Notes under the pieces: model-generated
The model's database searches: none
What the model saw: only the letters and a program-made list of their open reading frames with translations
What the model was told of the DNA's origin: nothing
Shown here: one piece after another, positions 1 through 22,403 of the stretch
Position numbering within the stretch: the first letter of the stretch is position 1
How the letters are laid out: every line of letters starts with the position of its first letter
Program-made: the position numbers and the translations under genes
IMG/VR virus record: IMGVR_UViG_3300042543_000428
Span: 1-22,917 of that record
Direction: 5' to 3' (one strand)
DNA from: a virus
Length of the DNA stretch: 22,917 bases

Positions 1-2907
1 GGCCAGTTGGTCGCGCTGCAACTCGAGCGCGGTTTTCTGGTTGCGGATCTGCTCAAGCTGCGCCTTGATAGCGGCCTTGTCCGCGTTCGGTGCTCCCTTC
101 GCCAACTCGGCCTGCTTGCGGGCGATCGCCAACTCAGCGAGACGCTGCGTCAACTCCGCAACCTGCTGCTTGGACTCCGACGTGCTCAACGGGGCCAGAG
201 ACGCCGCAGCGCCGTCCATTGACTGCCGGAAATCCTGCGCCGGAACCGCCAACGCCGAAACCTGACTTTGCAGCCCCGACAAGCCGCCGCTGAACTGGTT
301 CACCGAACTCGTCGCCTCACCGAGGTTGAAGTTGAACACCACACCCTCGGCGTTACCGAACACATCTTTGACTTGCTGCATCATCAGGCGGGCGATCCCC
401 ACCACTTCACCCACAGCGCCCTTGATTCCGCCGGCGAACCCGGTACCGATGGCTTCACCGGACCTATCCACCCAGCCCGACCCGGCGAACGGCCCCTTGT
501 CGGCCGGGGAGTTCGGGAAGAACTGCCTCGCCGCAGCCATCAACGATTGGGCGGCCGCGGCCACCGCACCCGACTGCGAAGAAATGCCGCCCGCGAATTC
601 CCGGCCCACAGCCTCACCGGAAGCCCGGGCAGACGCCGACAAACTCTGCAACGCCGAGGTGATCTGACCCGACCAGCCCTGCACCGCTGCCACGGCCTGG
701 GAACCGCCGTTGGTGACTGCCGACACCAGATCGTTCATGGCGGTCTGCGCCGAAGTCACTAAGCCGGTGAACGAAGTTTGCGCCAAAGTTGGTAACTGGC
801 CGATGGAAGCTTGGAATGCGGTGGTGATCTGCGAGCCCGCCGCCCCGACCGCCGAAACGGCCTGACCCAACGCCCCGGTGATCACCGCGGGAATCTGGTT
901 GAACGCCTGCTGCACCGCGTTGGTGATGTTCCCGGCCTGCTGACCGATGGACAACACCATGAACCCGAACGCCCCGGTGATGCTGGTTTGCACACCCTGG
1001 AACGCTGTGGTGGCCGTCAACGGCAGCTGCTGGAACGCCGTGGAGATAGCGGTGTTCAACTGGGTCACACCCGCTGTCACGGTCTGCTGGATGACACCCC
1101 ACGCCCCGGTGATCGCCGGCGCCAACGCGCCGAACGCCTGCCCCACCTTCGCGGGCAGCGTCGACAGCGGCAGCACCGCCTGGTCGATGCCCTGCTGCAA
1201 CACCGGGCCGAGCTGGGTGACCGCGGCTTGGGCCTCAGTGATCACCCCGGTCATCTGGGTTCCGATTTGCGCCTTCACCGCGTCGGTGACCCCGGTGCCG
1301 GTGAACGCCGACTTCAACGCCTCAGCCTGGGCCTGTTTCGACACATTCACCGCGGCCGACAACTGGTTGTTGATCGCCTCGGTTAAACCCGCACCACCGT
1401 CGGTGGCAGTTGACGCCGTCGCGGACAGGTTCTGCTGGAACTGCCTGGCCGCCTCACTGCCAGCCTCGGCAGCAGCTTTCGGGGCCTCACCGAAGAACTG
1501 CCGGAACGGGGCCTTATCACCCAGAACCCCGTCCTTGCCGAACAACCCGAGGAACCCCTCGGTCTGCTTCTGGCTGGTGTCCAAATCCTGCTTAGCGCCG
1601 GTGATCCGCTCAAAGGTTGCCGCGACATCCTTGATCTTGTCGATCGTGTCGACGATGCCGCTGATGATGGTGGCCACATCCTCGAAGCCGCTTTTCAGCA
1701 GCGGCAGGATGTCGTTGACGATCGACCGCAGATCGGCGGCGAAGTCTTTCATCTTCTGCCCGAAAGCAGGATCGGACAGGTTGTCGAAACTCCACGCCGC
1801 GATGTCCTTGATCGTGCCGCCGATCTCCCCCAACACCGCTTTGAGGTTCTGCATCGCCGAATCGAGTTGCCCGTTGGCGGTGATCTTGTCCACCCAGGTG
1901 GAGAACTCGTTGCCGATCCGGCTGAACGAATCAGCGAGACCGTTGAGGAAGCTGCCCGACAACCCTCTGGTGAGGTTGAGCAGCCCGTTGGTGAACGCCT
2001 GGAATCCCGGTGTCGCCCTGGTGATCGCCGAACTGATGTTGTCGATGATGGTGCGGACGCTTTCCAGGCCCGCGCCGCTGGTGACAACATCGACCACACC
2101 ACCGAAAGCGTTTGACAGGACCGTGGCGACGTTGGCCAGCTGCCCTTGGATTTTCGGGATGAACTCGCCGACCTTACGGAACGGTTCCTGCAAACCCTTC
2201 TCGAAGGCGCCGCTGACAGCGGTCTTCAGATTGTCGAAGGCCGGTTTGACAGCCTCGGCTGCCTTAGCGATGCCATCCATGCCCAACGCCAACACCGACG
2301 CCGGAACCACCGCGGCGGCCAACAGGCCGGGCAAAGCGACAAGCGCACCAGTGGCCAAAGACAAAGCTGGGGCCGCTAACGCCACGACCGCGGCGGCTAT
2401 CGCCCCGGCCTCACCGAACTTCGCCATCGAGTTCGCGGTGTTTGAGAAACCCTTGGAAAGCCCGGACAGCGACGACGACACCCGGTTGAATCCACGCAAC
2501 GCTGTCGCACCGAAACCAGCCGTCGCGGTGGTGAACGCCGCGGAAAACCTGACCAACGATCTACGCACACTGTTGTTGTCGACGTCGACTTCCACCGGAA
2601 CCTTCACCGCTTGGCCGCGCAAACCACGCGCAAACCCCGCCAGGAAAGACCTCACCCGGGTTTGGTCGGCCTCCGGCTCAACCGGAACCTTCACCGCGTT
2701 AGCGGCCGAAACTTTGACCTTCGCGTCGGGAAGGTTCGCGGTGGCTGCCCGCACCTCGTCCCGCAGCCGGCTGGTGTCCGCACCAACCCTGATATCAGCG
2801 ACTTTACGTTCCAGCTTCTCCAGTTCGCCCTGCAGTTCCTCCCGGAACCGATCCAAATCAGGAATGACCCGGATCGAGACCTTCCCGACTTCCTTCGAAC
2901 CGGCCAT
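1..2907 (-). CDS. Tape measure protein (C-terminus outside window)
   Basis: The frame is open from ATG 2907 to the window edge, 969 codons. GAGGAAGG lies five bases before the ATG. The N-terminus (MAGSKEVGKVSIRVIPDLD) leads into coiled-coil and linker repeats (KVPVEPEADQTRV; KVPVEVDVDNNSV). A strongly hydrophobic region at about 168-210 probably inserts in the membrane during DNA entry. Repeated AAxxFxQxP/AITGAxGxxx units follow between about 560 and 760. FFPNSPADKGPFAGSGW (796-812), a hallmark of tape measures, comes next, with SGEAIGTGFAGGI after it. A final visible coiled coil (VAELTQRLAELAIARKQAE) runs to the edge. Its length sets tail length: at about 0.15 nm per residue, 969 residues imply at least 145 nm. 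Confidence 0.95.
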   Translation of the reverse strand, partial: MAGSKEVGKVSIRVIPDLDRFREELQGELEKLERKVADIRVGADTSRLRDEVRAATANLPDAKVKVSAANAVKVPVEPEADQTRVRSFLAGFARGLRGQAVKVPVEVDVDNNSVRRSLVRFSAAFTTATAGFGATALRGFNRVSSSLSGLSKGFSNTANSMAKFGEAGAIAAAVVALAAPALSLATGALVALPGLLAAAVVPASVLALGMDGIAKAAEAVKPAFDNLKTAVSGAFEKGLQEPFRKVGEFIPKIQGQLANVATVLSNAFGGVVDVVTSGAGLESVRTIIDNISSAITRATPGFQAFTNGLLNLTRGLSGSFLNGLADSFSRIGNEFSTWVDKITANGQLDSAMQNLKAVLGEIGGTIKDIAAWSFDNLSDPAFGQKMKDFAADLRSIVNDILPLLKSGFEDVATIISGIVDTIDKIKDVAATFERITGAKQDLDTSQKQTEGFLGLFGKDGVLGDKAPFRQFFGEAPKAAAEAGSEAARQFQQNLSATASTATDGGAGLTEAINNQLSAAVNVSKQAQAEALKSAFTGTGVTDAVKAQIGTQMTGVITEAQAAVTQLGPVLQQGIDQAVLPLSTLPAKVGQAFGALAPAITGAWGVIQQTVTAGVTQLNTAISTAFQQLPLTATTAFQGVQTSITGAFGFMVLSIGQQAGNITNAVQQAFNQIPAVITGALGQAVSAVGAAGSQITTAFQASIGQLPTLAQTSFTGLVTSAQTAMNDLVSAVTNGGSQAVAAVQGWSGQITSALQSLSASARASGEAVGREFAGGISSQSGAVAAAAQSLMAAARQFFPNSPADKGPFAGSGWVDRSGEAIGTGFAGGIKGAVGEVVGIARLMMQQVKDVFGNAEGVVFNFNLGEATSSVNQFSGGLSGLQSQVSALAVPAQDFRQSMDGAAASLAPLSTSESKQQVAELTQRLAELAIARKQAELAKGAPNADKAAIKAQLEQIRNQKTALELQRDQLA

Positions 2908-3663
2908 CTGAACCTTCCTCAGCCAACTTTTGGGCCGCGATAGCGGCGAATGAACCAGCGCCGCGGCGCTTCGGACGGTCAGGGATGGGGAACGGCTCCG
3001 GCGGCTTCGGCCGGGACTTCACATGCGCCGACACATAGGTGTGCTGCAAAGCCCGAACCGCGTTCACCGTCGCCGCCGCCGCATACCGGGACGCGTCCCA
3101 ACCGCGGAACTCCTGCCCACCACGCACAGCAGCGTTGAACCGCCCACCCTCAGGCAAGCCGCGGATCAACACCAACAACCACAGCGGGGTCAGCGGGCTG
3201 CCCGGATGCATCAGATCCCGCAAATCCACCCGGTAATGCTCGAGCAGGTCAGCGGCCAAATGCTCACCGTACTCATCTATGAGGTCGGCGAGCCCTCGGC
3301 TTCCCCCGCCTGGGTGCCCTCCATCCACCGCGAAAACACCCGCAGCGTCAACGCCAAATCGTCCTCAATGGACTCCACAAGCCTCGCGCCGAGCTTCTCG
3401 TTGTCGGCCACCAAAGGCAGGATCTTCAACGCGATCTGAGCGGACTGCTCAGTGGCCACCAAACCGTCCTGGTCCTCGTCTTTCTGGATGGCGGACAGCT
3501 CATCGAGCAGTGTGTACACCTGTTCCCGGGTGGTTTTGGGGAGCCGCAGAAGGTTCCGCAGCGTCAACGTTTTCCCCTCCCCCACGTCCAGTTGGCAGGG
3601 GGCGAATTCGCGCTCGATGTCTTCGCGGAGGGAATCCAAAGTCAAAATGTTGTTGTTGGGCAT
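2858..3663 (-). CDS. Tail assembly chaperone (frameshifted long form, GT-like)
   Basis: A second frame, offset by -1, overlaps the end of the short form and continues to 2858. If ribosomes slip at 3301-3307, the product is about 120 residues of the short form plus 148 residues (GSRGLADLIDEYGEHLAADLLEHY and onward), 268 aa in all. The extension contains LTPLWLLVLIRGLPEGGRFNAAVRGG and FRGWDASRYAAAATVNAVRAL, typical of the T part in actinophages. It has no independent start with a good ribosome binding site. It overlaps the tape measure start by 50 bases. The long form links chaperone complexes to the tube subunits in lambda-type assembly. Confidence 0.82.
3277..3663 (-). CDS. Tail assembly chaperone (short form, G-like)
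   Basis: A 128-aa protein starting MPNNNILTLDSLREDIEREFAP, with the usual LTLRNLLRLPKTTREQVYTLLDEL helix and SIEDDLALTLRVFSRWMEG near the end. It is the G-type chaperone that coats the tape measure during tail assembly. ATG 3663 has GAAAGG seven bases upstream; an upstream extension through the inverted-repeat region would be Pro/Ser-rich and unlikely. Its last codons contain the G5AA run used for the -1 shift. Confidence 0.87.
   Translation of the reverse strand: MPNNNILTLDSLREDIEREFAPCQLDVGEGKTLTLRNLLRLPKTTREQVYTLLDELSAIQKDEDQDGLVATEQSAQIALKILPLVADNEKLGARLVESIEDDLALTLRVFSRWMEGTQAGEAEGSPTS
3301..3307 (-). other. Candidate -1 ribosomal slippery site (GGGGGAA)
   Basis: On the coding strand GCG-GGG-GAA-GCC changes to GGC-GGG-GGA-AGC after a -1 slip. 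The P-site GGG re-pairs perfectly; the A-site GAA tRNA would face GGA with one G-U pair. It is therefore not a perfect XXXYYYZ heptamer. A weak GAGG/CCUC stem starts three bases later. The site is the only homopolymeric run in the overlap. Confidence 0.62.
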
Positions 3664-3710
3664 GGCTGGGCCTTTCTCATAGCGGGTCTTTGGCGGGCAG
3701 TGTGGTGAAG

Positions 3711-3748
3711 GGGGGAGGGGAGCGGCCCGCCAGGAACTCCCCTCCCCC
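3711..3748 (-). terminator. Perfect 12-bp inverted repeat after the tail tube gene
   Basis: GGGGGAGGGGAG (3711-3722) and CTCCCCTCCCCC (3737-3748) are exact reverse complements around a 14-base loop, starting a few bases after the tube-protein stop. The RNA hairpin would be very stable. The sequence after it on the RNA strand is CUUCACCAC, with almost no U tract. Partial termination, or a 3'-end RNA-stabilising hairpin that keeps tube mRNA abundant relative to chaperone mRNA, are both reasonable. Confidence 0.75.
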
Positions 3749-3755
3749 GGCCTAC

Positions 3756-4430
3756 TCACGGGACGAAGAAGTCCTTGTTGATCCAGGAGAACTTCACTTC
3801 GGTGTTGTGGCGCAGCAGCGTCGCCCGGATGGGCAGCGCCGCGAACTCGTCGGTGGCCATTTCCACCGCATCGTCCCGCCTGAACGACGCCTTGTGGGCG
3901 TGGAACCCGATCTTGTTGTCGCCGTCCACGATCAGGATGAACAGGGCCTTCTCCACCGGGACGGTGGTACCGCCGGCCACACCGAATACACCGGTCGTGG
4001 TGGGCAGGGCGTCCTTGCCGTAGTACAGCTCGAACGCACCCGAGTCGAACTGGTGCAGTTTGAAGACGAGGTAGTCAGCGACCGGTTTGGTTTCCACCTC
4101 GCGCAGCGACTCGTTCTGCCAAGTGCCACGCGTCTCCAGATCGCCGCCGTCGTAACCGAACTCCGGCAGATCATCGCGGGAGGTGTGCCCGACGTTGACC
4201 CACGCCACAGGCAGTGTGGTCTTCGCATCCGCGGCAGCCGAACGGCCACCGGCCTTGCCGCCAGCGTCAGCGTCGGGGTCAACAACAACATCGTCAACCC
4301 CGGCTTCGAGAAGCAGCTTCGGGGTAGCCAGAGCGGCAAGCTCAGTTGGGGTCGGTGCGGCAGTTCCGACCGGGGCCGTGAAAATGAACCCAGTCGCAGC
4401 GGTGATCACCGCTTTGTCATTGATTGGCAT
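3756..4430 (-). CDS. Major tail tube protein
   Basis: A 224-aa tube protein located directly between tail terminator and chaperones, as usual. It begins MPINDKAVITAATGFIFTAPVGTAAP and contains AWVNVGHTSRDDLPEFGYDGGD and ETRGTWQNESLREVETKP, common in actinophage tube proteins. It ends with beta strands (VEMATDEFAALPIRATLL). An Asp/Ala/Gly-rich stretch at about 46-70 (VDDVVVDPDADAGGKAGGRS) looks like a flexible loop, possibly on the tube surface. AGGAG lies nine bases before the ATG. A perfect 12-bp inverted repeat follows the stop. Confidence 0.9.
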   Translation of the reverse strand: MPINDKAVITAATGFIFTAPVGTAAPTPTELAALATPKLLLEAGVDDVVVDPDADAGGKAGGRSAAADAKTTLPVAWVNVGHTSRDDLPEFGYDGGDLETRGTWQNESLREVETKPVADYLVFKLHQFDSGAFELYYGKDALPTTTGVFGVAGGTTVPVEKALFILIVDGDNKIGFHAHKASFRRDDAVEMATDEFAALPIRATLLRHNTEVKFSWINKDFFVP

Positions 4431-4866: not shown

Positions 4867-5223
4867 CTAGGCTTGGCTGTGCGTCCCCGTCATGATGTAA
4901 AGACCGAACGGCGCTCTCGTGCGGGTGCCCTCCAACTTCCCCGAGGGGGCGTGCCCGTACTCGATGGCCATCGCGTTCTCGGCGGTCATGGAGACGTGAT
5001 AGTCGCAGGTGTAGCGGCCGTCCGCTTCGGACACCTCGATGGCGGTTTCGCCGGCCGAGTCGCGGTCGTACTTCACCCACCGTGTTGATGAGCGGGCAGC
5101 TGTTAAACGGGTTTGCGCGATGCCCTCCAGGCGGCCCGCTTCGTCCCGCAACGCACCCTTCACCCCACCCATGTGGGCGATCATCCCGTTGAACGCTTTG
5201 CCCTTCTTGTAGATCTCAGCCAT
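4867..5223 (-). CDS. Neck / tail-completion protein (HK97 gp10-like)
   Basis: A 118-aa protein between stopper and tail terminator. It begins MAEIYKKGKAFNGMIAHMGGVKGALRDEAGRLEGIAQTRL, the N-terminal helix of gp10-like neck proteins. It contains the typical AMAIEYGHAPSG motif near the end, followed by GLYIMTGT. Its place in the operon fits a head-tail joining factor. The start ATG shares one base with the stopper stop. A family-level call is safe; the exact step in joining is not visible. Confidence 0.75.
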   Translation of the reverse strand: MAEIYKKGKAFNGMIAHMGGVKGALRDEAGRLEGIAQTRLTAARSSTRWVKYDRDSAGETAIEVSEADGRYTCDYHVSMTAENAMAIEYGHAPSGKLEGTRTRAPFGLYIMTGTHSQA

Positions 5224-5570
5224 CAGTGCCTCTTGATGGTGTAGATCAGGTGGGCGGTGCGCGGAGAGTTGCTGTACCTCAACGGGTCACCGTGGATGAC
5301 CCACCGCTCACCCATCCACTCAATTTGGGACTGGGCACCCAACACGCATCTCAGGCCGCGGGGGAACCGCAGCGAATACACCTTCTCGCTGTCGAACCCG
5401 TCCCCGTACTGGTCGGCTGAGGCTGCACCACCGGAACCCAACGGTTGGATGCGTGCCCTGGCGCGGAACCCGCACTTAGCGGCTTGGGTTTTCGTGTTCC
5501 CGTCCGCGTCGGTGACCTTTTCCTCCGGGAACACAACCACGCACTGATTACCCCTATCGAGGAGGCTCAT
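5223..5570 (-). CDS. Head-to-tail stopper
   Basis: A 115-aa beta-rich protein with the actinophage stopper pattern: MSLLDRGNQCVVVFPEEKVTD, then ADQYGDGFDSEKVYSLRFPRG, then QIEWMGERWVIHGDPLRYSNS and RTAHLIYTIKRH. Stoppers form the ring closing the DNA channel below the adaptor after packaging. It is coupled to the previous gene by ATGA and to the next by a one-base overlap (TGATG). Length and order are normal for the family. Confidence 0.82.
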   Translation of the reverse strand: MSLLDRGNQCVVVFPEEKVTDADGNTKTQAAKCGFRARARIQPLGSGGAASADQYGDGFDSEKVYSLRFPRGLRCVLGAQSQIEWMGERWVIHGDPLRYSNSPRTAHLIYTIKRH

Positions 5571-5854
5571 TGGGTGAGTGCGGCTTTCACGTCCGAGGGC
5601 CGGATCAGCTTCGTGCGGTCCTTGAGGACGTGCGGGATGGTGCCGTCAGCGACGAGCCTCTTCAGCCGGTTCATGGAGATGTCAACGACACCTGGGATGC
5701 GTGTCATCGGGATCGGAGTGTCGTCTTCTCCACGGCCCTCCACTCGGTCACCGTGATCTTCGGTGGAGCCTTCCGCCCAGGACTTCCCGGCCAGCAGCAG
5801 CTTCGCCAACGACTCTGGCAGGTCGACGTTGATTTCTCCGTTGGTGATTTCCAT
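5567..5854 (-). CDS. Small head-region protein with excisionase-like C-terminus (95 aa)
   Basis: Residues 1-25 (MEITNGEINVDLPESLAKLLLAGKSW) match the N-terminal module of the KAPAK protein at 8117-8314. After an acidic linker (EGSTEDHGDRVEGRGEDD), residues 50-95 read like a MerR/excisionase winged helix: ISMNRLKRLVADGTIPHV, then LIRPSDVKAAL. This is the usual recognition helix, wing and closing helix pattern. I chose ATG 5854 with GAAGGTG eight bases upstream; GTG 5860 overlaps the previous stop but has no spacing for it. The stop overlaps the next ATG. DNA binding is inferred. A structural role with a borrowed fold is the alternative. Confidence 0.68.
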   Translation of the reverse strand: MEITNGEINVDLPESLAKLLLAGKSWAEGSTEDHGDRVEGRGEDDTPIPMTRIPGVVDISMNRLKRLVADGTIPHVLKDRTKLIRPSDVKAALTQ

Positions 5855-5856
5855 AG

Positions 5857-6744
5857 TCACAGCACCTTCGGCGGGGCCAACACGTCGAACGTGACTGAAC
5901 CAGACGCATAACGGTTAGCTGTGTTGCCGCCGTACATAATTATCATCGAATCCGGCGAGCAAGCGTCCTCAAACACCACCACTCGCCTGCCACCGTTGTC
6001 AGAGGATTCCCACAACACCCTCGCGGGGCCACCGGCACCGGACTGCACATACGTTTTCGCTGGGGTAGTCGCCACCTGGCTCATCCCGATAAGCCGCCGA
6101 TACCGTGCCCGAACATTGTAGCCGTCGGTATCGCCAGAGTTAGCTGTACCTGTAATGGTGTGGCTGGCATAGTTACTCACCGACACCGAATTACTGGCGA
6201 ACGTGTACGTCGGATTGTTGGCTTTACCAGCCAAATCCGTGCCGGTGGTGCAAGTGACCACAACTTCCTGCGGGCCTTTGCCCGGTGTGATAGCCGCACC
6301 GTAGGCTCGAACCTCGCCCCGCGTCTTATCGGTGGGATGTGAACCGCCTGTCAAAGCCGCACCCAACTGGGTAAGCGTCTGCGTGCCGTACTTGACCGTG
6401 ATGGTCCACACCGACCCGCCTGGAACAACATCGGGGATCGTGAAGCCCACGAACACCACGAGGTAGTCATCAAACTCGCCGGGGGTGTGCGTGTACGTTG
6501 CGCCCATCGTTTTCGACGCGGTGACAACGTACTGCCCCCCACCGACAGCGGTGTTGGAGACCCGCACCAACGTGGGGTCTGGTGTGGTTGATGCGGGGCA
6601 GCACTGCCGCCGCTCCAACGCGGTGACACGACCGTCAAGCCCGGACAGATCATCCCCGCCTCGGGGCGGCACAGTGATCTGCGTCGGATCGCCAATACGG
6701 TCCTTGCTGCCGATCATCGGGGCCATCTTGTTACTTGCAGTCAC
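5857..6744 (-). CDS. Neck-region beta-rich protein (295 aa, unrecognised)
   Basis: I do not recognise the family. The N-terminal 55 residues contain a short potential coiled coil (LDGRVTALERRQCC) that could trimerise or cap the preceding fibre. The rest is Thr/Val/Gly-rich beta structure (FDDYLVVFVGFTIPDVVPGG; SVWTITVKYGTQTLTQ; GYNVRARYRRLIG; RRVVVFEDACSPDSMIIMYGG), suggesting a jelly-roll or Ig-like head. It starts with GTG overlapping the coiled-coil gene and overlaps or abuts the next small gene, so expression is coupled. A fibre tip or capsid/neck decoration is plausible. DNA around 5900-6250 is more AT-rich than flanking genes, hinting at acquisition. Confidence 0.6.
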   Translation of the reverse strand: MTASNKMAPMIGSKDRIGDPTQITVPPRGGDDLSGLDGRVTALERRQCCPASTTPDPTLVRVSNTAVGGGQYVVTASKTMGATYTHTPGEFDDYLVVFVGFTIPDVVPGGSVWTITVKYGTQTLTQLGAALTGGSHPTDKTRGEVRAYGAAITPGKGPQEVVVTCTTGTDLAGKANNPTYTFASNSVSVSNYASHTITGTANSGDTDGYNVRARYRRLIGMSQVATTPAKTYVQSGAGGPARVLWESSDNGGRRVVVFEDACSPDSMIIMYGGNTANRYASGSVTFDVLAPPKVL

Positions 6745-7706
6745 GGTTTCACCTTCCCGTCGATTTCGATTCCAGTGGCTTCGATCAGCGCCATCACAAC
6801 ATCGTTAAGCAACCAGAACATCTCGGTGACGCTCTGCACCGTGGCATTAGGCCCGTTTATGGCATCCATCAAATCTTGGTAAGCCCTCTTTGTCAGATAA
6901 TTGTTCAGGACGAACTCAATGACATCGTTGATTGCCTGCCGGGTATTGCCCAGATCGACCTCATGCTTATCGGCCAACGCATCAAGACCACTGGCAGCGG
7001 TTTCACCGACACGCACACCGACCGCCTCCGCGTAATTCTTCGCGGCAATCAGATTCTGGTCACAGGAACCCGATACACCTGCGGCAAGTTGTTCCGTGTA
7101 ATCCTTGAGCTGCAGCTTGGCCTGATTGATATCGGCGTCCACCTGAGTTTGATCCGCTTTAGCCCCAACAGCACTCTCAAGCGCGGCGATCCGCGCCGAC
7201 AGCGTAGCCGTCGCCGCCGTCACCGCAGCCTCCATTGCAGCCTGGTCAACCGAACCAGGAGTCAACGCATCATCAACCGTCAACACCCGTCGGCCGTTCA
7301 CCAGTAACGAGCCGTCAGGCAGATCCATGTTCAGCGACACAGGCTTATTCGGGCCGGAAATATCCAAACCCTCAATGCCGACCTGGCCGTCATCGGTGTT
7401 CAGCCGGATCGTCTTCGGCATCGCCTTGAACTGCGACTGAACAGCCTCCTGGATCATCGGGCCGAACTCAGTGAGCTTCCGCTCAATGATCGCCTCAACA
7501 GCAGCCTCATCGGTGACGCCGGCCGGGATCGCCGCAATCGAGGCGTCGATCAACGTCTGCACCTGGGCCTGCGTCAAACCACCAGACCCACCGCCCGTGG
7601 GGAGGGTGCCCAAACCCCCACCAGTGGGCTTCGGGACACCGTAATCCCGCTCCAAAACCTCATAGATGAGGGCTGTCACACCCACAACCGTGATAACAGT
7701 TGCCAT
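6741..7706 (-). CDS. Neck-region fibrous protein with coiled coils (321 aa, unrecognised)
   Basis: I do not recognise the family. Residues 1-18 are hydrophobic (MATVITVVGVTALIYEVL), then a Gly/Pro linker (PKPTGGGLGTLPTGGGSGG). Long Ala-rich helices follow (LTQAQVQTLIDASIAAIPAG; AAMEAAVTAATATLSARIAALESAVGAK; QVDADINQAKLQLKDYTEQLAAG) with coiled-coil spacing. A beta patch lies between them (TIRLNTDDGQVGIEGLDIS). The C-terminus is helical (ALIEATGIEIDGKVKP). The layout fits an elongated trimeric fibre or whisker. It lies between the head-tail adaptor and stopper genes and overlaps the next gene as GTGA. A neck fibre or head fibre is the best inference; a tail-fibre relative moved here is the alternative. 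Confidence 0.6.
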   Translation of the reverse strand: MATVITVVGVTALIYEVLERDYGVPKPTGGGLGTLPTGGGSGGLTQAQVQTLIDASIAAIPAGVTDEAAVEAIIERKLTEFGPMIQEAVQSQFKAMPKTIRLNTDDGQVGIEGLDISGPNKPVSLNMDLPDGSLLVNGRRVLTVDDALTPGSVDQAAMEAAVTAATATLSARIAALESAVGAKADQTQVDADINQAKLQLKDYTEQLAAGVSGSCDQNLIAAKNYAEAVGVRVGETAASGLDALADKHEVDLGNTRQAINDVIEFVLNNYLTKRAYQDLMDAINGPNATVQSVTEMFWLLNDVVMALIEATGIEIDGKVKP

Positions 7707-7711
7707 AGCCT

Positions 7712-8113
7712 TTAAATCTCCGCCCTAAGAATCGTGTGCCCATCGCCCAACAACAGAGAAGGAACCAGCGTCGTCAACCGATTGCGGTGAACACCCAATG
7801 TCGCCCACTCATCGGGCAGGATCTGCAACCTGCCCGTCGTCAACTCCTTGGAAAGCTGGTAGGTGTAGCTGCCGTCGGTCTCCGAAACGAAACCCTCCGG
7901 GTTGCGGCACAACCGCAACACCGCATCGGCCTCAACCTGAACCAAGTCCTCCACATCCAGCCGGCCCGAATCAATCCAGGCGTCCAGATCGGGAATCCTG
8001 CGGCGAATCAGACGCTCCACATCCTCGAGGCGAACCTCGACGAGCGCCTTCTCCTCCTCGGTCAAAGCACGCGACCAGCGCACCGCCACATCACATGCCG
8101 ACGCGAACGCCAT
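7712..8113 (-). CDS. Head-to-tail adaptor protein
   Basis: A 133-aa helical protein starting MAFASACDVAVRWSRALTEEEKALVEVRLEDVERLIRRRIPDL. This resembles the gp15/gp6-type adaptors that dock under the portal in siphophages. The middle has the typical VQVEADAVLRLCRNPEGFVSETDGSYTYQLS pattern. It starts three bases after the KAPAK protein stop and ends five bases before the next gene. The adaptor, stopper and tail terminator normally follow each other closely. Here two extra genes interrupt that order. Confidence 0.82.
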   Translation of the reverse strand: MAFASACDVAVRWSRALTEEEKALVEVRLEDVERLIRRRIPDLDAWIDSGRLDVEDLVQVEADAVLRLCRNPEGFVSETDGSYTYQLSKELTTGRLQILPDEWATLGVHRNRLTTLVPSLLLGDGHTILRAEI

Positions 8114-8116
8114 CTC

Positions 8117-8314
8117 TCACGCCCCAACCTTCTTCGTGGGGGCTTTCTTCGCCGGTGCCTTCGCCGGCGCTTTCTTCGCCGGGGCTTTGGCCGGCGCTTC
8201 TGCCGCAACCGCGTTTTCCGCGGCAGCCTCCCAGCCGCCCGCCGAAACCAGCACACCGGCCAAAACCTCCGGCACGTCGGCTTCCTCGCCGCTGACCTTA
8301 TTTCTGATCTTCAT
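8117..8314 (-). CDS. Small capsid-region protein with KAPAK-rich tail (65 aa)
   Basis: The N-terminus MKIRNKVSGEEADVPEVLAGVLVSAGGW is a short module often found after actinophage capsid genes. The C-terminal half is Lys/Ala/Pro-rich (APAKAPAKKAPAKAPAKKA), like histone H1 or mycobacterial HU tails, and probably binds DNA. The ATG at 8314 overlaps the HNH stop (ATGA), with GAAAGG six bases upstream. The N-terminal module matches that of the protein at 5567-5854. A role in DNA condensation or head completion is inferred; the function is not established here. Confidence 0.75.
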   Translation of the reverse strand: MKIRNKVSGEEADVPEVLAGVLVSAGGWEAAAENAVAAEAPAKAPAKKAPAKAPAKKAPTKKVGA

Positions 8315-8832
8315 TCGCAACCTTTCAACCGCGATTCCAACTCGGCCACCCGTTCCTCAAGTGCAGCGATCCGACGCAGATAGTGCTGCCGTTCGTTCAT
8401 CTCAGCCACATTGTTGATGTTCGAGATAGCCTGGAGATGAGCAGGATTCACACACTGCCGGTTAGCGCAAGTATGGTGGATCGTCACACCGTCGATGTTC
8501 TCGTCGGGGTGAAAGAAACTGTAGGAATACCTGTAGGCCATGACGGTACGTGATCTGGATTCCTTTGGAATCTTGTTCAGAGGGAACGTCCCACGTTTAC
8601 AGGCCAACCAGTTCCAGCAACCACCAAAGTCTCTCAGGTCAACCCTGTCCCAGAACCGGTCTTCCTCAGACCAGTCAAGTCGCAACTTGCGGAGTGGGAC
8701 TAGCTGATGACCCTTTGCGCGTTGATTAGCGTGCCCAACACAAAAATCACCCCTGCGTGGTTTATCGCAACCTTTGAACGCGCAGCGCGGAGGGGTCGGG
8801 GCTACCGACCCCTCCGAAACTGCAAGGCTCAC
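8311..8832 (-). CDS. Free-standing HNH homing-type endonuclease
   Basis: A 173-aa HNH_3-type nuclease. Residues 17-34 form a zinc-finger-like element (C17, C22, C31, H34), followed by GHQLVPLRK, as in other actinophage homing enzymes. The nuclease core is TIHHTCANRQCVNPAHLQAIS, with H119/H120, C122, C127, N129 and H132. A C-terminal coiled coil (RIAALEERVAELESRLK) may mediate dimers. It starts with GTG overlapping the capsid stop and ends overlapping the next ATG. That fits a mobile gene inserted into a tightly packed operon without breaking coupling. The DNA looks more AT-rich than the capsid gene beside it, which suggests acquisition. Confidence 0.88.
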   Translation of the reverse strand: MSLAVSEGSVAPTPPRCAFKGCDKPRRGDFCVGHANQRAKGHQLVPLRKLRLDWSEEDRFWDRVDLRDFGGCWNWLACKRGTFPLNKIPKESRSRTVMAYRYSYSFFHPDENIDGVTIHHTCANRQCVNPAHLQAISNINNVAEMNERQHYLRRIAALEERVAELESRLKGCE

Positions 8833-19608: not shown

Positions 19609-20799
19609 TCACCAAGTGTCCCAAGCGACACGTTTCCACTGATCCACACCCACAGCCACATACAGGTAATTGGCGTCGGCGGCGATCTGCCCCAAAGCGC
19701 CGACCGCTGTAGGGGAACCGGGGATTAAACCGGCGCGAACCGTAGCGACCGGAAGGGTCGTGAGTCCCGTAGCCCCGGCGATAGCGGCAGCCTCGAAACG
19801 CTGCAAAACCCGCCCGCCGACGCCCTTCGGGGCCAACTCCAAATTAATGTTCGTGTCCGAACCCGACACCTGAATCCGCGCAGGATCACCCGGAAGGACG
19901 GGTACTAAGTCCGGTGCCGTCAACGTACACAGCCGCAATGTTTTGTTCGTCAACGTCACCACATTCCCGGCAGTGACGATCTGATTCGTCACTAGCGGGG
20001 CCGTCAGATTACTGGCAGCCTCCCCCGAAGGCGCGACGTAAGCGTTCCCGGCGACCGGAACCAACACGATATGCGCGGGCTGCGTGGCATCCGGCTGTCT
20101 CTGCGCGACAAGCATGAACCCGTTCTTACGAACCCGAAGCTTCGCAAACGAATCCGCATCCCCGTCATAACCGATCTGATACACGGTGCCTGGGTAGTTC
20201 ACACCACCGGGCTGATCGGCGCGGTGATCCACAATCCGAACCGCACGCGGCAACGCAACACCTGTAGCCGCATTCGTGCCCGCATCAACCAAACGGAACC
20301 GGTTAATCTCAGGGAAACCCGACAGATCAAACTGACCAACACCAGTAAGGCCAGTATCCGGCCAAGCAACATCCGAACCGTTCAACCACGACTCAATCCG
20401 CGCCTTCAACACCCGCCACGGCGACACCTTCACCGCCCGGTCAGCAGACCTCGAAACCGGATCAACAACCAAAACCTCAGTGTCATCATCGAAAACGTCG
20501 ATAGCCTCCAACGAATCGACATCAACAACACCGTCTTTGCCGTCAACACCTTCCTTACCAGGAGGGCCGGCATCACCCTTCTCCCCGCGAGGACCGTCAA
20601 CACCGTCCTTGCCCGGAGGGCCAGCATCACCCTTATCGCCCTTCGGGCCGCGCTCGCCCGGATCACCCTTATCGCCCTTCGGCCCAGGAACAGCAACCCC
20701 ACCAGAACCATCCCCGGAATCACCCTTATCGCCCTTCGGGCCGCGAGGACCAGGAACACCCACAAACCGACGCACCGGCGAATCGCCACAATAAGGCAT
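19609..20799 (-). CDS. Collagen-like minor tail protein (396 aa)
   Basis: Residues 1-14 (MPYCGDSPVRRFVG) form a short N-terminal segment nearly shared with the larger fibre downstream. Residues 15-90 are Gly-X-Y triplets ([20 protein letters not shown] type) that should form a collagen-like triple helix. The rest is a beta-rich body containing DSLEAIDVFDDDTEVLVVDPV and, near the end, AIAGATGLTTLPVATVRAGL. It finishes with a compact C-terminal unit (GALGQIAADANYLYVAVGV). This layout is typical of trimeric tail fibres or adhesins. GGTGGAG lies just before the ATG, which directly abuts the previous stop. Repeated GGN-rich triplets make three near-copies of the same DNA segment between 20620 and 20760. 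Confidence 0.85.
   Translation of the reverse strand: MPYCGDSPVRRFVGVPGPRGPKGDKGDSGDGSGGVAVPGPKGDKGDPGERGPKGDKGDAGPPGKDGVDGPRGEKGDAGPPGKEGVDGKDGVVDVDSLEAIDVFDDDTEVLVVDPVSRSADRAVKVSPWRVLKARIESWLNGSDVAWPDTGLTGVGQFDLSGFPEINRFRLVDAGTNAATGVALPRAVRIVDHRADQPGGVNYPGTVYQIGYDGDADSFAKLRVRKNGFMLVAQRQPDATQPAHIVLVPVAGNAYVAPSGEAASNLTAPLVTNQIVTAGNVVTLTNKTLRLCTLTAPDLVPVLPGDPARIQVSGSDTNINLELAPKGVGGRVLQRFEAAAIAGATGLTTLPVATVRAGLIPGSPTAVGALGQIAADANYLYVAVGVDQWKRVAWDTW
20563..20760 (-). repeat. Collagen-type Gly-X-Y coding repeats (first fibre)
   Basis: The DNA encoding the Gly-X-Y run carries repeated units; for example, CACCCTTATCGCCCTTCGG (plus strand) recurs three times between about 20628 and 20740. The 24 bases at 20737-20760 are identical to 19236-19259 in the second fibre gene. 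Such tracts can expand, contract or recombine with each other. Confidence 0.8.
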
Positions 20800-21114
20800 C
20801 TACTTCTCCACCTTCACATAGCCCTTAGCCCAAGCAGTACCGCCCGCCGGCTCACCCTCAGGCAAAAACACCAACTGCCAACGCGCACGATTCGCAACCG
20901 TGTCAGCGACCTCCGACTCCACCTTCAACGAAGCCACAGACCCATCCACATCAAAAAACCAACGCGAACCATCCACAAACTCGAAAAACAAATCACCGGG
21001 CGGGAAAGGCAGAGGATCACCGCACTGATCCACCAACTCCACATTCCAAAAGAAATCCCGGCCCCTGGTCACAAACATCACATCATCCCGTTGCGGGACA
21101 CCCACATAACCCAC
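20800..21114 (-). CDS. LtfC-like tail-associated protein
   Basis: A 104-aa beta-rich protein with the pattern PQRDDVMFVTRGRDFFWNVELVD, then FEFVDGSRWFFDVDG, then ARWQLVFLPEGEPAGGTAWAKGYVKV. This matches a small beta-sandwich family common just before minor tail genes in actinophages, annotated LtfC-like. It is probably a structural or assembly component of the tail tip or fibre. I chose GTG at 21114 because GGGAGG lies five bases upstream. A TTG eight codons earlier is possible but has no ribosome binding site. The stop TAG is followed immediately by the ATG of the collagen-like gene, so the two are coupled. Family call is from memory of the motif. Confidence 0.7.
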   Translation of the reverse strand: MGYVGVPQRDDVMFVTRGRDFFWNVELVDQCGDPLPFPPGDLFFEFVDGSRWFFDVDGSVASLKVESEVADTVANRARWQLVFLPEGEPAGGTAWAKGYVKVEK

Positions 21115-21138
21115 AAAAACCTCCCAAACCACCAGCAA

Positions 21139-21208
21139 CCGAAAGAAAAGCCGGGGGAGAGGAGCACCAACACGCCCACCGCGCAGCAGCTACAACCCTC
21201 ACCCCGGC
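21139..21208 (-). terminator. Terminator-like hairpin after small terminase
   Basis: On the RNA strand, GCCGGGG (21208-21202), a one-base bulge and GAGGG pair with CUCUC and CCCCGGC (ending at 21150). The flank that follows is UUUUCUUUC. A GC-rich stem of about 12 pairs with a U-rich tail looks like an intrinsic terminator or attenuator. The loop is long, about 34 nt, so efficiency is uncertain. It would separate HNH/TerS expression from the tail-fibre and lysis genes. Confidence 0.42.
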
Positions 21209-21210
21209 GG

Positions 21211-21630
21211 TCAACGAGCAGCCAAACGCTCCCGCAACATCCCCGCCACATCAATCACCTGAGCATCCGACACCGAACGCTCAACCTCCAACCGAACCCG
21301 ACGCCGCGCACCCTCAGTCACCAACAAATCCGACAACTGCGCCAACAACGCCGCCACCATCTGAGCCGACGGCCGCGAAGCCTTAAACTGCTGATCCAAA
21401 AAGAACAACACCGACCGCGCCATCTCATAATCACTCGGCTCATAGAACCGGGCCTGCGCCGAAACCGACAACGACCCAAACAAATCCACCGTCATCGGAT
21501 GCGGATCAACAAAACCCAACTCCGGCGCCCGAACACACCCAATCGCCGAAACCTTCTCAACCTCAACATCAGGCTTATTCCGCCGAACACGCTCATCACT
21601 ACGCTTCGGCACCGGCCCACGAGCACCCAT
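21211..21630 (-). CDS. terS: Terminase small subunit
   Basis: This 139-aa protein begins MGARGPVPKRSDERVRRNK, the basic N-terminus typical of actinophage small terminases. That segment contributes to recognition of packaging DNA. The middle holds RFYEPSDYEMARSVLFFLDQQF, followed by the LAQLSDLLVTEGARRRVRLEVER segment, both familiar in this family and likely oligomerisation helices. TerS binds viral DNA near the packaging site and hands it to TerL. The ATG is preceded by AGGAGGGTG six bases upstream. Unusually, the large subunit is not next: about 6.7 kb of fibre and lysis genes separate them. A hairpin with a U-rich 3' flank follows the stop. Confidence 0.85.
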   Translation of the reverse strand: MGARGPVPKRSDERVRRNKPDVEVEKVSAIGCVRAPELGFVDPHPMTVDLFGSLSVSAQARFYEPSDYEMARSVLFFLDQQFKASRPSAQMVAALLAQLSDLLVTEGARRRVRLEVERSVSDAQVIDVAGMLRERLAAR

Positions 21631-21671
21631 CGCACACCCTCCTGGGGCAACACGGCAGGCACCAGGCCCAC

Positions 21672-21947
21672 CTACAACGAATCCAACTCAAACAACAACC
21701 TCAACGCGTCATCCCGCATCCGCACATCCTCAACAAGACGCTCAACCAACTCCTGCTGACGAACCAACAACCACAACGACAACGCCATCGACACAGCACC
21801 AGCACCCCGCGGCTCCCCCTCCGCAGCACACACAAAACCCTCAACCAAACACCCCAAAAAATCCTCAACCGAACCATCAAAAACCGACCACTCACGCCGA
21901 ACCGACCCCACCAACACATCCAACGACGCAAACGTCGACTCAAACAC
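21672..21947 (-). CDS. Hypothetical protein between HNH and small terminase (91 aa)
   Basis: I do not recognise the family. It starts with GTG and overlaps the HNH stop by eight bases, so it is probably coupled to it. The sequence is mostly helical: a hydrophobic, weakly acidic N-terminal half (MFESTFASLDVLVG), then a long amphipathic helix (LWLLVRQQELVERLVEDVRM) that could support dimerisation. There is no cysteine motif, signal peptide or clear membrane segment. Its position between an HNH nuclease and TerS suggests a packaging accessory role or one in early infection; this is inference. The coding strand shares the strong G/T third-position bias of its neighbours, which supports it being a real gene. 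Confidence 0.7.
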   Translation of the reverse strand: MFESTFASLDVLVGSVRREWSVFDGSVEDFLGCLVEGFVCAAEGEPRGAGAVSMALSLWLLVRQQELVERLVEDVRMRDDALRLLFELDSL

Positions 21948-22272
21948 CGAACCCCCCCGGATGACGATCCGCCGGCCGAAACCTCAACCCCGCCAACTCA
22001 CGCCGACGCGCAACACCCTCCAAAGCCGACTTCCGCGCATGACACCCACGATGAATCGGCGCCAAATTCGAGCCCTCACCACCACCACGCGCCCGAGACA
22101 CCCGATGATCAACCTCATCAGCCCCACCCCGGCCGCACACACAACAAACATCCGACTCACGCAACACCCGCCGGCGAATCCGAGCCCACCCAGCAGGCAT
22201 CGGCACACGATCAGGCCGATCAGCACCCCAAGGCACCCCAAACCACCACCAATCACACGAAAACACGCTCAA
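21940..22272 (-). CDS. HNH endonuclease (packaging-associated)
   Basis: A compact 110-aa HNH nuclease. Visible motifs are a CxxC zinc pair (C43, C46), the DEVDH core with catalytic H56, N69 in GSNLAPIH, then C77-H78 and K81-S in GCHARKS. In cohesive-end phages, an HNH protein encoded beside terminase often works with it in cos cleavage; that role is inferred from position. The start is probably TTG at 22272 or GTG two codons later. An ATG at codon 25 would remove the RPDRVP segment that usually precedes the first helix in this family. No strong ribosome binding site is visible. The gene overlaps the next one by eight bases. Its coding strand is markedly G/T-rich at third positions, as in the genes down to about 19.4 kb. 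Confidence 0.88.
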   Translation of the reverse strand: MSVFSCDWWWFGVPWGADRPDRVPMPAGWARIRRRVLRESDVCCVCGRGGADEVDHRVSRARGGGEGSNLAPIHRGCHARKSALEGVARRRELAGLRFRPADRHPGGFGV

Positions 22273-22403
22273 GGACGCGAAAACCGCAGGTCAAAGCCCC
22301 CCATCGGCTTCAAAACCCGTACCGGAAAATTCAGCAGCCTAACCCAGCGGTCATCGAAGCGGGGCAGGGTTGGTACCCCCTGGGGTCAGGGAAGCGAACC
22401 CGC
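22273..22403. other. Non-coding gap; candidate cos or genome-end junction
   Basis: This 131-bp stretch is among the longest gene-free intervals in the window. It lies directly before the HNH-TerS packaging genes, where cos sites lie in many cohesive-end actinophages. It contains ACCCC-CT-GGGGT (22375-22386), five-base arms around two bases, and AAGCC/GGCTT arms seven bases apart near 22294-22312 (seen on the minus strand). I see no convincing -35/-10 pair on the minus strand and no T-tract terminator. The cos assignment rests on position and GC-rich symmetry only. Confidence 0.3.

Follow-up and report, generated by a model that had tools for sequence, protein, structure and literature searches.

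The window, a 22.9 kb record from an uncultivated virus, carries a head-tail module on its minus strand in the order TerL, portal, protease, scaffold, MCP, HNH gene, a Lys/Ala/Pro-rich protein, Ad1, FIB1, FIB2, a 97-aa gene, Hc1, Ne1, tail terminator, MTP, tail chaperones and tape measure. Ad1, the head-tail adaptor (7712..8113, 133 aa), was recognized by PHROG 137 (E 1e-37) and Pfam Phage_Gp19, and the head closure (stopper) protein Hc1 (5223..5570) by PHROG 320 (E 2.8e-35). FIB1 (6741..7706, 321 aa) and FIB2 (5857..6744, 295 aa, GTG start), which we read as the shaft and tip proteins of a fibre, overlap by GTGA, exactly where the initial annotation had placed two coupled ORFs in the connector block. 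Its statement that the pair lies between adaptor and stopper needs one amendment: Ad1 is the upstream neighbour and Hc1 forms the downstream border, but FIB2 does not abut Hc1 because a small 97-aa gene with weak HTH_17 resemblance (5567..5860) intervenes, itself coupled to FIB2 by a second GTGA. Both frames are kept open in relatives at dN/dS values of 0.22-0.46, and FIB1 and FIB2 are thus real genes. A suggested shift toward AT in the second gene proved weak, with FIB2 at a GC of 0.58-0.63 and the pair's lowest 500-base value (0.556, 6751-7250) inside FIB1; the window minimum of 0.536 falls in the HNH gene. This endonuclease gene (8311-8832) overlaps the end of the capsid gene and is present in only some contigs. 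Elsewhere in the window, overlapping tail assembly chaperone ORFs (2858-3759) are probably joined by a programmed frameshift, as in named relatives, and the region upstream of the terminase (20000-22300) shows strong GC and AT skew and long overlapping ORFs on both strands.

By the order and similarity of portal, MCP, Ad1, Hc1, terminator and MTP, the window has a cluster A-type virion module. The phages PetterN (Mycobacterium), Rosalind (Gordonia) and Phrankenstein (Rhodococcus) share its gene order, and their proteins are about 31-66% identical to those of the window (portal 56-66%, MCP 52-61%, Hc1 38-55%); between Ad1 and Hc1 they hold at most a 47-65-aa ORF. Of 1027 records from named relatives (cluster A-type phages of Mycobacterium, Gordonia and Rhodococcus), 1021 covered a concatenated Ad1+Hc1 query by a single place. 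Since ~1.85 kb of inserted DNA would split such a match, the FIB1-FIB2 cassette counts as inserted when compared with named phages, and the earlier description of this block as normally uninterrupted is correct for about 1021 of these records. Phage Douge, a cluster A member, offers a further comparison. Its connector consists of portal gp5, adaptor gp9, stopper gp10 and terminator gp12, and a neck fibre is not mentioned in the passages on this connector (PMC13033339).

None of the named phages searched has the cassette, but it recurs in uncultivated phages. When FIB1, FIB2, a collar tip, two tail FIB1s and the small gene were compared by tblastn with 50,697 phage records, no match was returned. 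Searches of Pfam and PHROGs with FIB1 and FIB2 gave nothing clearly above chance, the best hit being PHROG 10825, of unknown function, at E 0.008 for FIB1; against PDB sequences FIB1 had no match and FIB2 a single one at E 0.12. Viral contigs yielded 31 FIB1 and 23 FIB2 relatives, and about 40 uncultivated contigs, all of metagenomic origin, carry relatives of the cassette. A FIB2 profile run against bacterial and archaeal genomes gave four pattern matches and no relatives, and indicated no host. P0004 and P0018 did not align with each other. We considered an assembly artefact and ruled it out, as identical cassettes recur across contigs of different samples (L022/L023/L024/L025; L027-L031).

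The layout first proposed for FIB1, with a hydrophobic N-terminus, a Gly-rich linker and coiled-coil-like helices, was borne out by hydropathy, composition and a heptad test. The top 15-residue hydropathy window is at residue 4 (mean KD 2.2), residues 28-46 (7569..7625) form a Gly-rich hinge followed by mostly helix, and a heptad-like window was reached in 8 of 500 shuffles. An AlphaFold2 model built with no templates (pLDDT 54) is likewise mostly helical, with a first helix at 7-22, and a short segment of the shaft (~97-146, IRLN...SVNGKRVLT; 7269..7418) is predicted as strand with low confidence. Every FIB1 of the connector locus opens with the same ~27 residues, M(A/T)TV(I/F)TV(V/I)GVxxLIYxxLxxDYG (residues 1-27, 7626..7706), which we propose as the neck anchor, and continues into the Gly-rich hinge. 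In a search with the anchor segment alone, its start lay 5-25 nt after Ad1 in 41 of 41 loci. Past the hinge the shaft differs in length and sequence, FIB1-type proteins spanning 280-473 aa, and the C-terminus of most shafts is a conserved domain built around an invariant FWLLND core. In the window this C-terminal domain, a candidate for tip coupling, covers residues 256-321 (NGPxAT...FWLLND...ATGI; 6744..6941), and neck and tail copies taken together share 18 invariant columns in it.

FIB2 begins with a GxxxRxG... motif (6667..6726), the proposed site of docking to the shaft. The motif, with invariant G12 and R16 in FIB2 numbering, is common to the beta-domain heads, to the otherwise unrelated collar heads and to an additional middle protein found in L026 and L027. 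The connector locus uses two kinds of head, that of the window and one of the PHROG 523 'tail collar fibre' type (E 6e-11 in L027, 4e-9 in L104). In L026, L027 and L104 the tail collar head (PF07484, PHROG 523) caps a shaft of the same kind at the neck locus, whereas the window's own FIB2 has no collar match in Pfam and bears a different, beta-domain head. A template-free AlphaFold2 model of FIB2 (pLDDT 60) shows a short helix at 36-46 and then beta structure only. With this low-confidence model, the all-beta head (residues 55-295, 5860..6582) was matched by Foldseek in BFVD to mycobacteriophage minor tail proteins (best E 3e-7, prob 1.0, TM about 0.5), namely predicted folds from phages PP, Hawkeye, Gaia and Stubby at 10-17% identity; the FIB2 gene, unlike theirs, lies in the connector block. 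Foldseek against the PDB gave no E below 0.01, and VIA-align scores of up to Z 6.7 fell on unrelated beta-sandwiches and were treated as noise. One group of loci (L013-L017, L039-L043) has another shaft end and tips that lack the FIB2 motif; the end of the shaft and the start of the tip thus change in concert. From this paired change we infer that the FIB1 C-terminus would bind the FIB2 N-terminal motif.

L038 is of the same phage type as the window. Ad1, the HTH-like gene, Hc1 and MTP are 99-100% identical between the two at the nucleotide level. FIB1 retains 99% nucleotide identity over codons 1-30 and 82% over codons 31-60, and collapses just 3' of the hinge to 56% over codons 61-150 (48-56% past the hinge), while FIB2 is 97% identical at its N-terminus and 61-71% in the head. 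Exchange at the hinge and within the tip produces such a profile. The initial annotation had also allowed that the fibre guides assembly; such a role is disfavoured because named relatives do without the genes and the cassette is swapped while its flanks stay near-identical.

Relatives of the cassette also occur in the tail-fibre regions of other phages (L021, L032, L044, L099, L106), where, in the copies that could be read, the neighbouring genes are of collagen-like, beta-helix or minor tail type and an endolysin gene follows. Overall, these copies share 91-98% nucleotide identity with neck cassettes over 1-2 kb. The L032 tail cassette matches the L027 neck cassette at 91.4% over 1958 bp, and that of L044 matches the L004 and L007 neck cassettes at 93-95% over 1.1-1.26 kb, with 879 of 897 nt (98%) identical in FIB2; both matches start inside FIB1. 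The L032 contig (63.8 kb) has its own TMP and PHROG 106 and PHROG 110 tail genes, which the cassette follows, ahead of the endolysin, and its head genes are only distantly similar (portal 23%). Four tail-region copies, all from metagenomic contigs, have a FIB1 N-terminus that could be read (L021, L032, L044, L106), and it resembled the anchor no better than shuffles did. The N-terminus of the L032 tail FIB1 is instead common to another tail-region protein (score 125 vs 21.2+/-4.2 for shuffles). Copies in the connector and tail blocks therefore have the same distal parts behind different front ends, a single one at the connector and others in the tail. With conserved coupling ends, exchangeable heads, one of them of the tail-collar type, and recent copies in tail-fibre regions, the shaft-plus-tip fibre of the initial annotation is well supported.

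Where this fibre sits on the virion is a separate question. The near-identical shaft and tip in tail-fibre regions elsewhere, together with the minor tail proteins as fold relatives of the FIB2 head, are what one would expect of an ordinary tail fibre whose gene was displaced into the connector block and whose anchor differs because the baseplate of this phage differs. Gene order need not match virion position: the neck-passage gene of TP901-1, ORF51, follows the baseplate genes (PMC4493119), so gene position alone cannot decide virion location. Against a displaced tail fibre, the anchor-bearing gene follows Ad1 in all 41 loci, and the cassette is absent from named relatives that have related tail genes. 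Moreover, a 44-kb window-type contig keeps the tail genes of PHROGs 106, 110, 352 and 737 and has no fibre copy in its tail block; as the full minor tail gene set is retained, the fibre is an addition. We regard a displaced tail fibre as unlikely, though it is the strongest of the competing readings. Close homologs among tail-tip proteins had been named in advance as evidence against a neck fibre, and the homologs found go halfway, lying in tail-fibre regions with a different front end. The proposed neck or collar location has indirect support: the constant position of the anchor and the other N-termini of the tail copies favour it, but a docking partner was not found, since the anchor showed no co-variation beyond permutation with portal, MCP, Ad1, Hc1, Ne1, terminator or MTP and no second copy in the genome. 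In a related phage, an endonuclease VII-like gene (L050 2595-3545) separates the tape measure gene from the distal tail genes.

Encoding close to the capsid gene and with the other head genes would also suit a capsid fibre or a decoration on capsomers, with a role comparable to that of phi29 head fibres, and head accessory proteins are known from actinophages (PMC7150772). Neither Pfam, PHROGs nor solved structures gave any resemblance in this direction, and a place directly after the adaptor suits the portal vertex at least as well, which makes a head fibre improbable in our view. We hold it more improbable still, to the point of being hardly credible, that the pair belongs to a moron, an accessory cassette with no part in the virion, which was inserted in the structural operon. 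Its absence from named relatives and the small accessory genes, HTH-like or DUF732, that travel with it would fit such an origin; the shaft and tip architecture, the collar-type heads, the minor-tail-protein fold and the copies in tail-fibre regions speak against it.

Our preferred reading, which we judge probable, is that the two proteins build a modular fibre for host binding that is attached at the neck or portal vertex and supplements the normal tail; gene position and the anchor swap suggest the neck attachment. Under this model, FIB1 would be a coiled-coil shaft, probably trimeric, that is part of the virion and is attached to the connector or portal vertex by its ~27-residue N-terminus, and the Gly-rich hinge would allow it to swing. 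At the distal end, its conserved C-terminus would bind FIB2 through the conserved motif at the FIB2 N-terminus, and the beta-domain head of FIB2 would touch the host surface. Shaft and tip would be replaced as a unit, the anchor being kept or replaced for neck or tail use. We give an even chance to a broader proposal: a cassette for receptor binding would change between tail tip and neck as attachment sites of tailed phages, its shaft and tip retained and only the anchor end of the shaft, at the N-terminus, exchanged. If so, the phage would gain a second, rapidly exchangeable adhesin away from the conserved baseplate.

Neck fibres have been documented mainly in lactococcal and T4-type phages. 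The lactococcal NPS of the 936 group and TP901-1 is a proposed neck fibre with a conserved N-terminus, a coiled coil and variable host-binding C-terminal modules, and is reported to be non-essential (PMC6669499, PMC4493119). Like it, the cassette combines a constant N-terminus, present in 41 of 41 loci, with a variable, presumably coiled-coil shaft and a variable head. In NPS a single protein of ~500-900 aa carries a near-identical, BppU-like N-terminus of ~180 aa, whereas the cassette comprises two coupled proteins and an anchor of ~27 aa. NPS shares its anchor-side fold with a baseplate protein (BppU); the cassette shares shaft and tip with tail-fibre regions and differs in the anchor. No BppU-like N-terminal beta-sandwich (~130-180 aa) was found in FIB1, where helix 7-22, the Gly-rich linker and further helices are predicted, with low confidence. 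With no such domain seen and two proteins instead of one, the cassette is not an NPS member by the features tested; by analogy, it may work like the lactococcal neck-passage fibres with no sequence relation to any solved structure. With phi29 head fibres and T4 fibritin it shares the idea of an elongated head or neck fibre that assists adsorption or assembly, but FIB1 has no sequence match to them in PDB or Pfam, and the exchangeable two-protein shaft and tip sets it apart.

If the neck reading is correct, the cluster A type would here gain its first reported modular neck adhesin, in our own judgement from a limited literature search. The fibre may then have changed between tail and neck positions through a swap of its plug-like front end. 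The natural pairs with the same shaft and tip and different anchors make the question of the attachment site directly testable, and the cassette supplies a short candidate anchor peptide.

Two small genes accompany the cassette. The 97-aa-type gene lies behind the tip both at the neck and in tail loci (L032 7480-7845; L106 8674-9036) at 33-88% identity; it has an N-terminal motif that is DUF7302-like by eye and a C-terminus with the weak HTH_17 resemblance, and may encode a tip chaperone or accessory protein. The third slot is taken by a predicted secreted DUF732 protein, in place of the HTH-like gene or beside it, in several cassettes (L007 3571-3870; L010 2894-3196; also L004, L009, L046 and L021).
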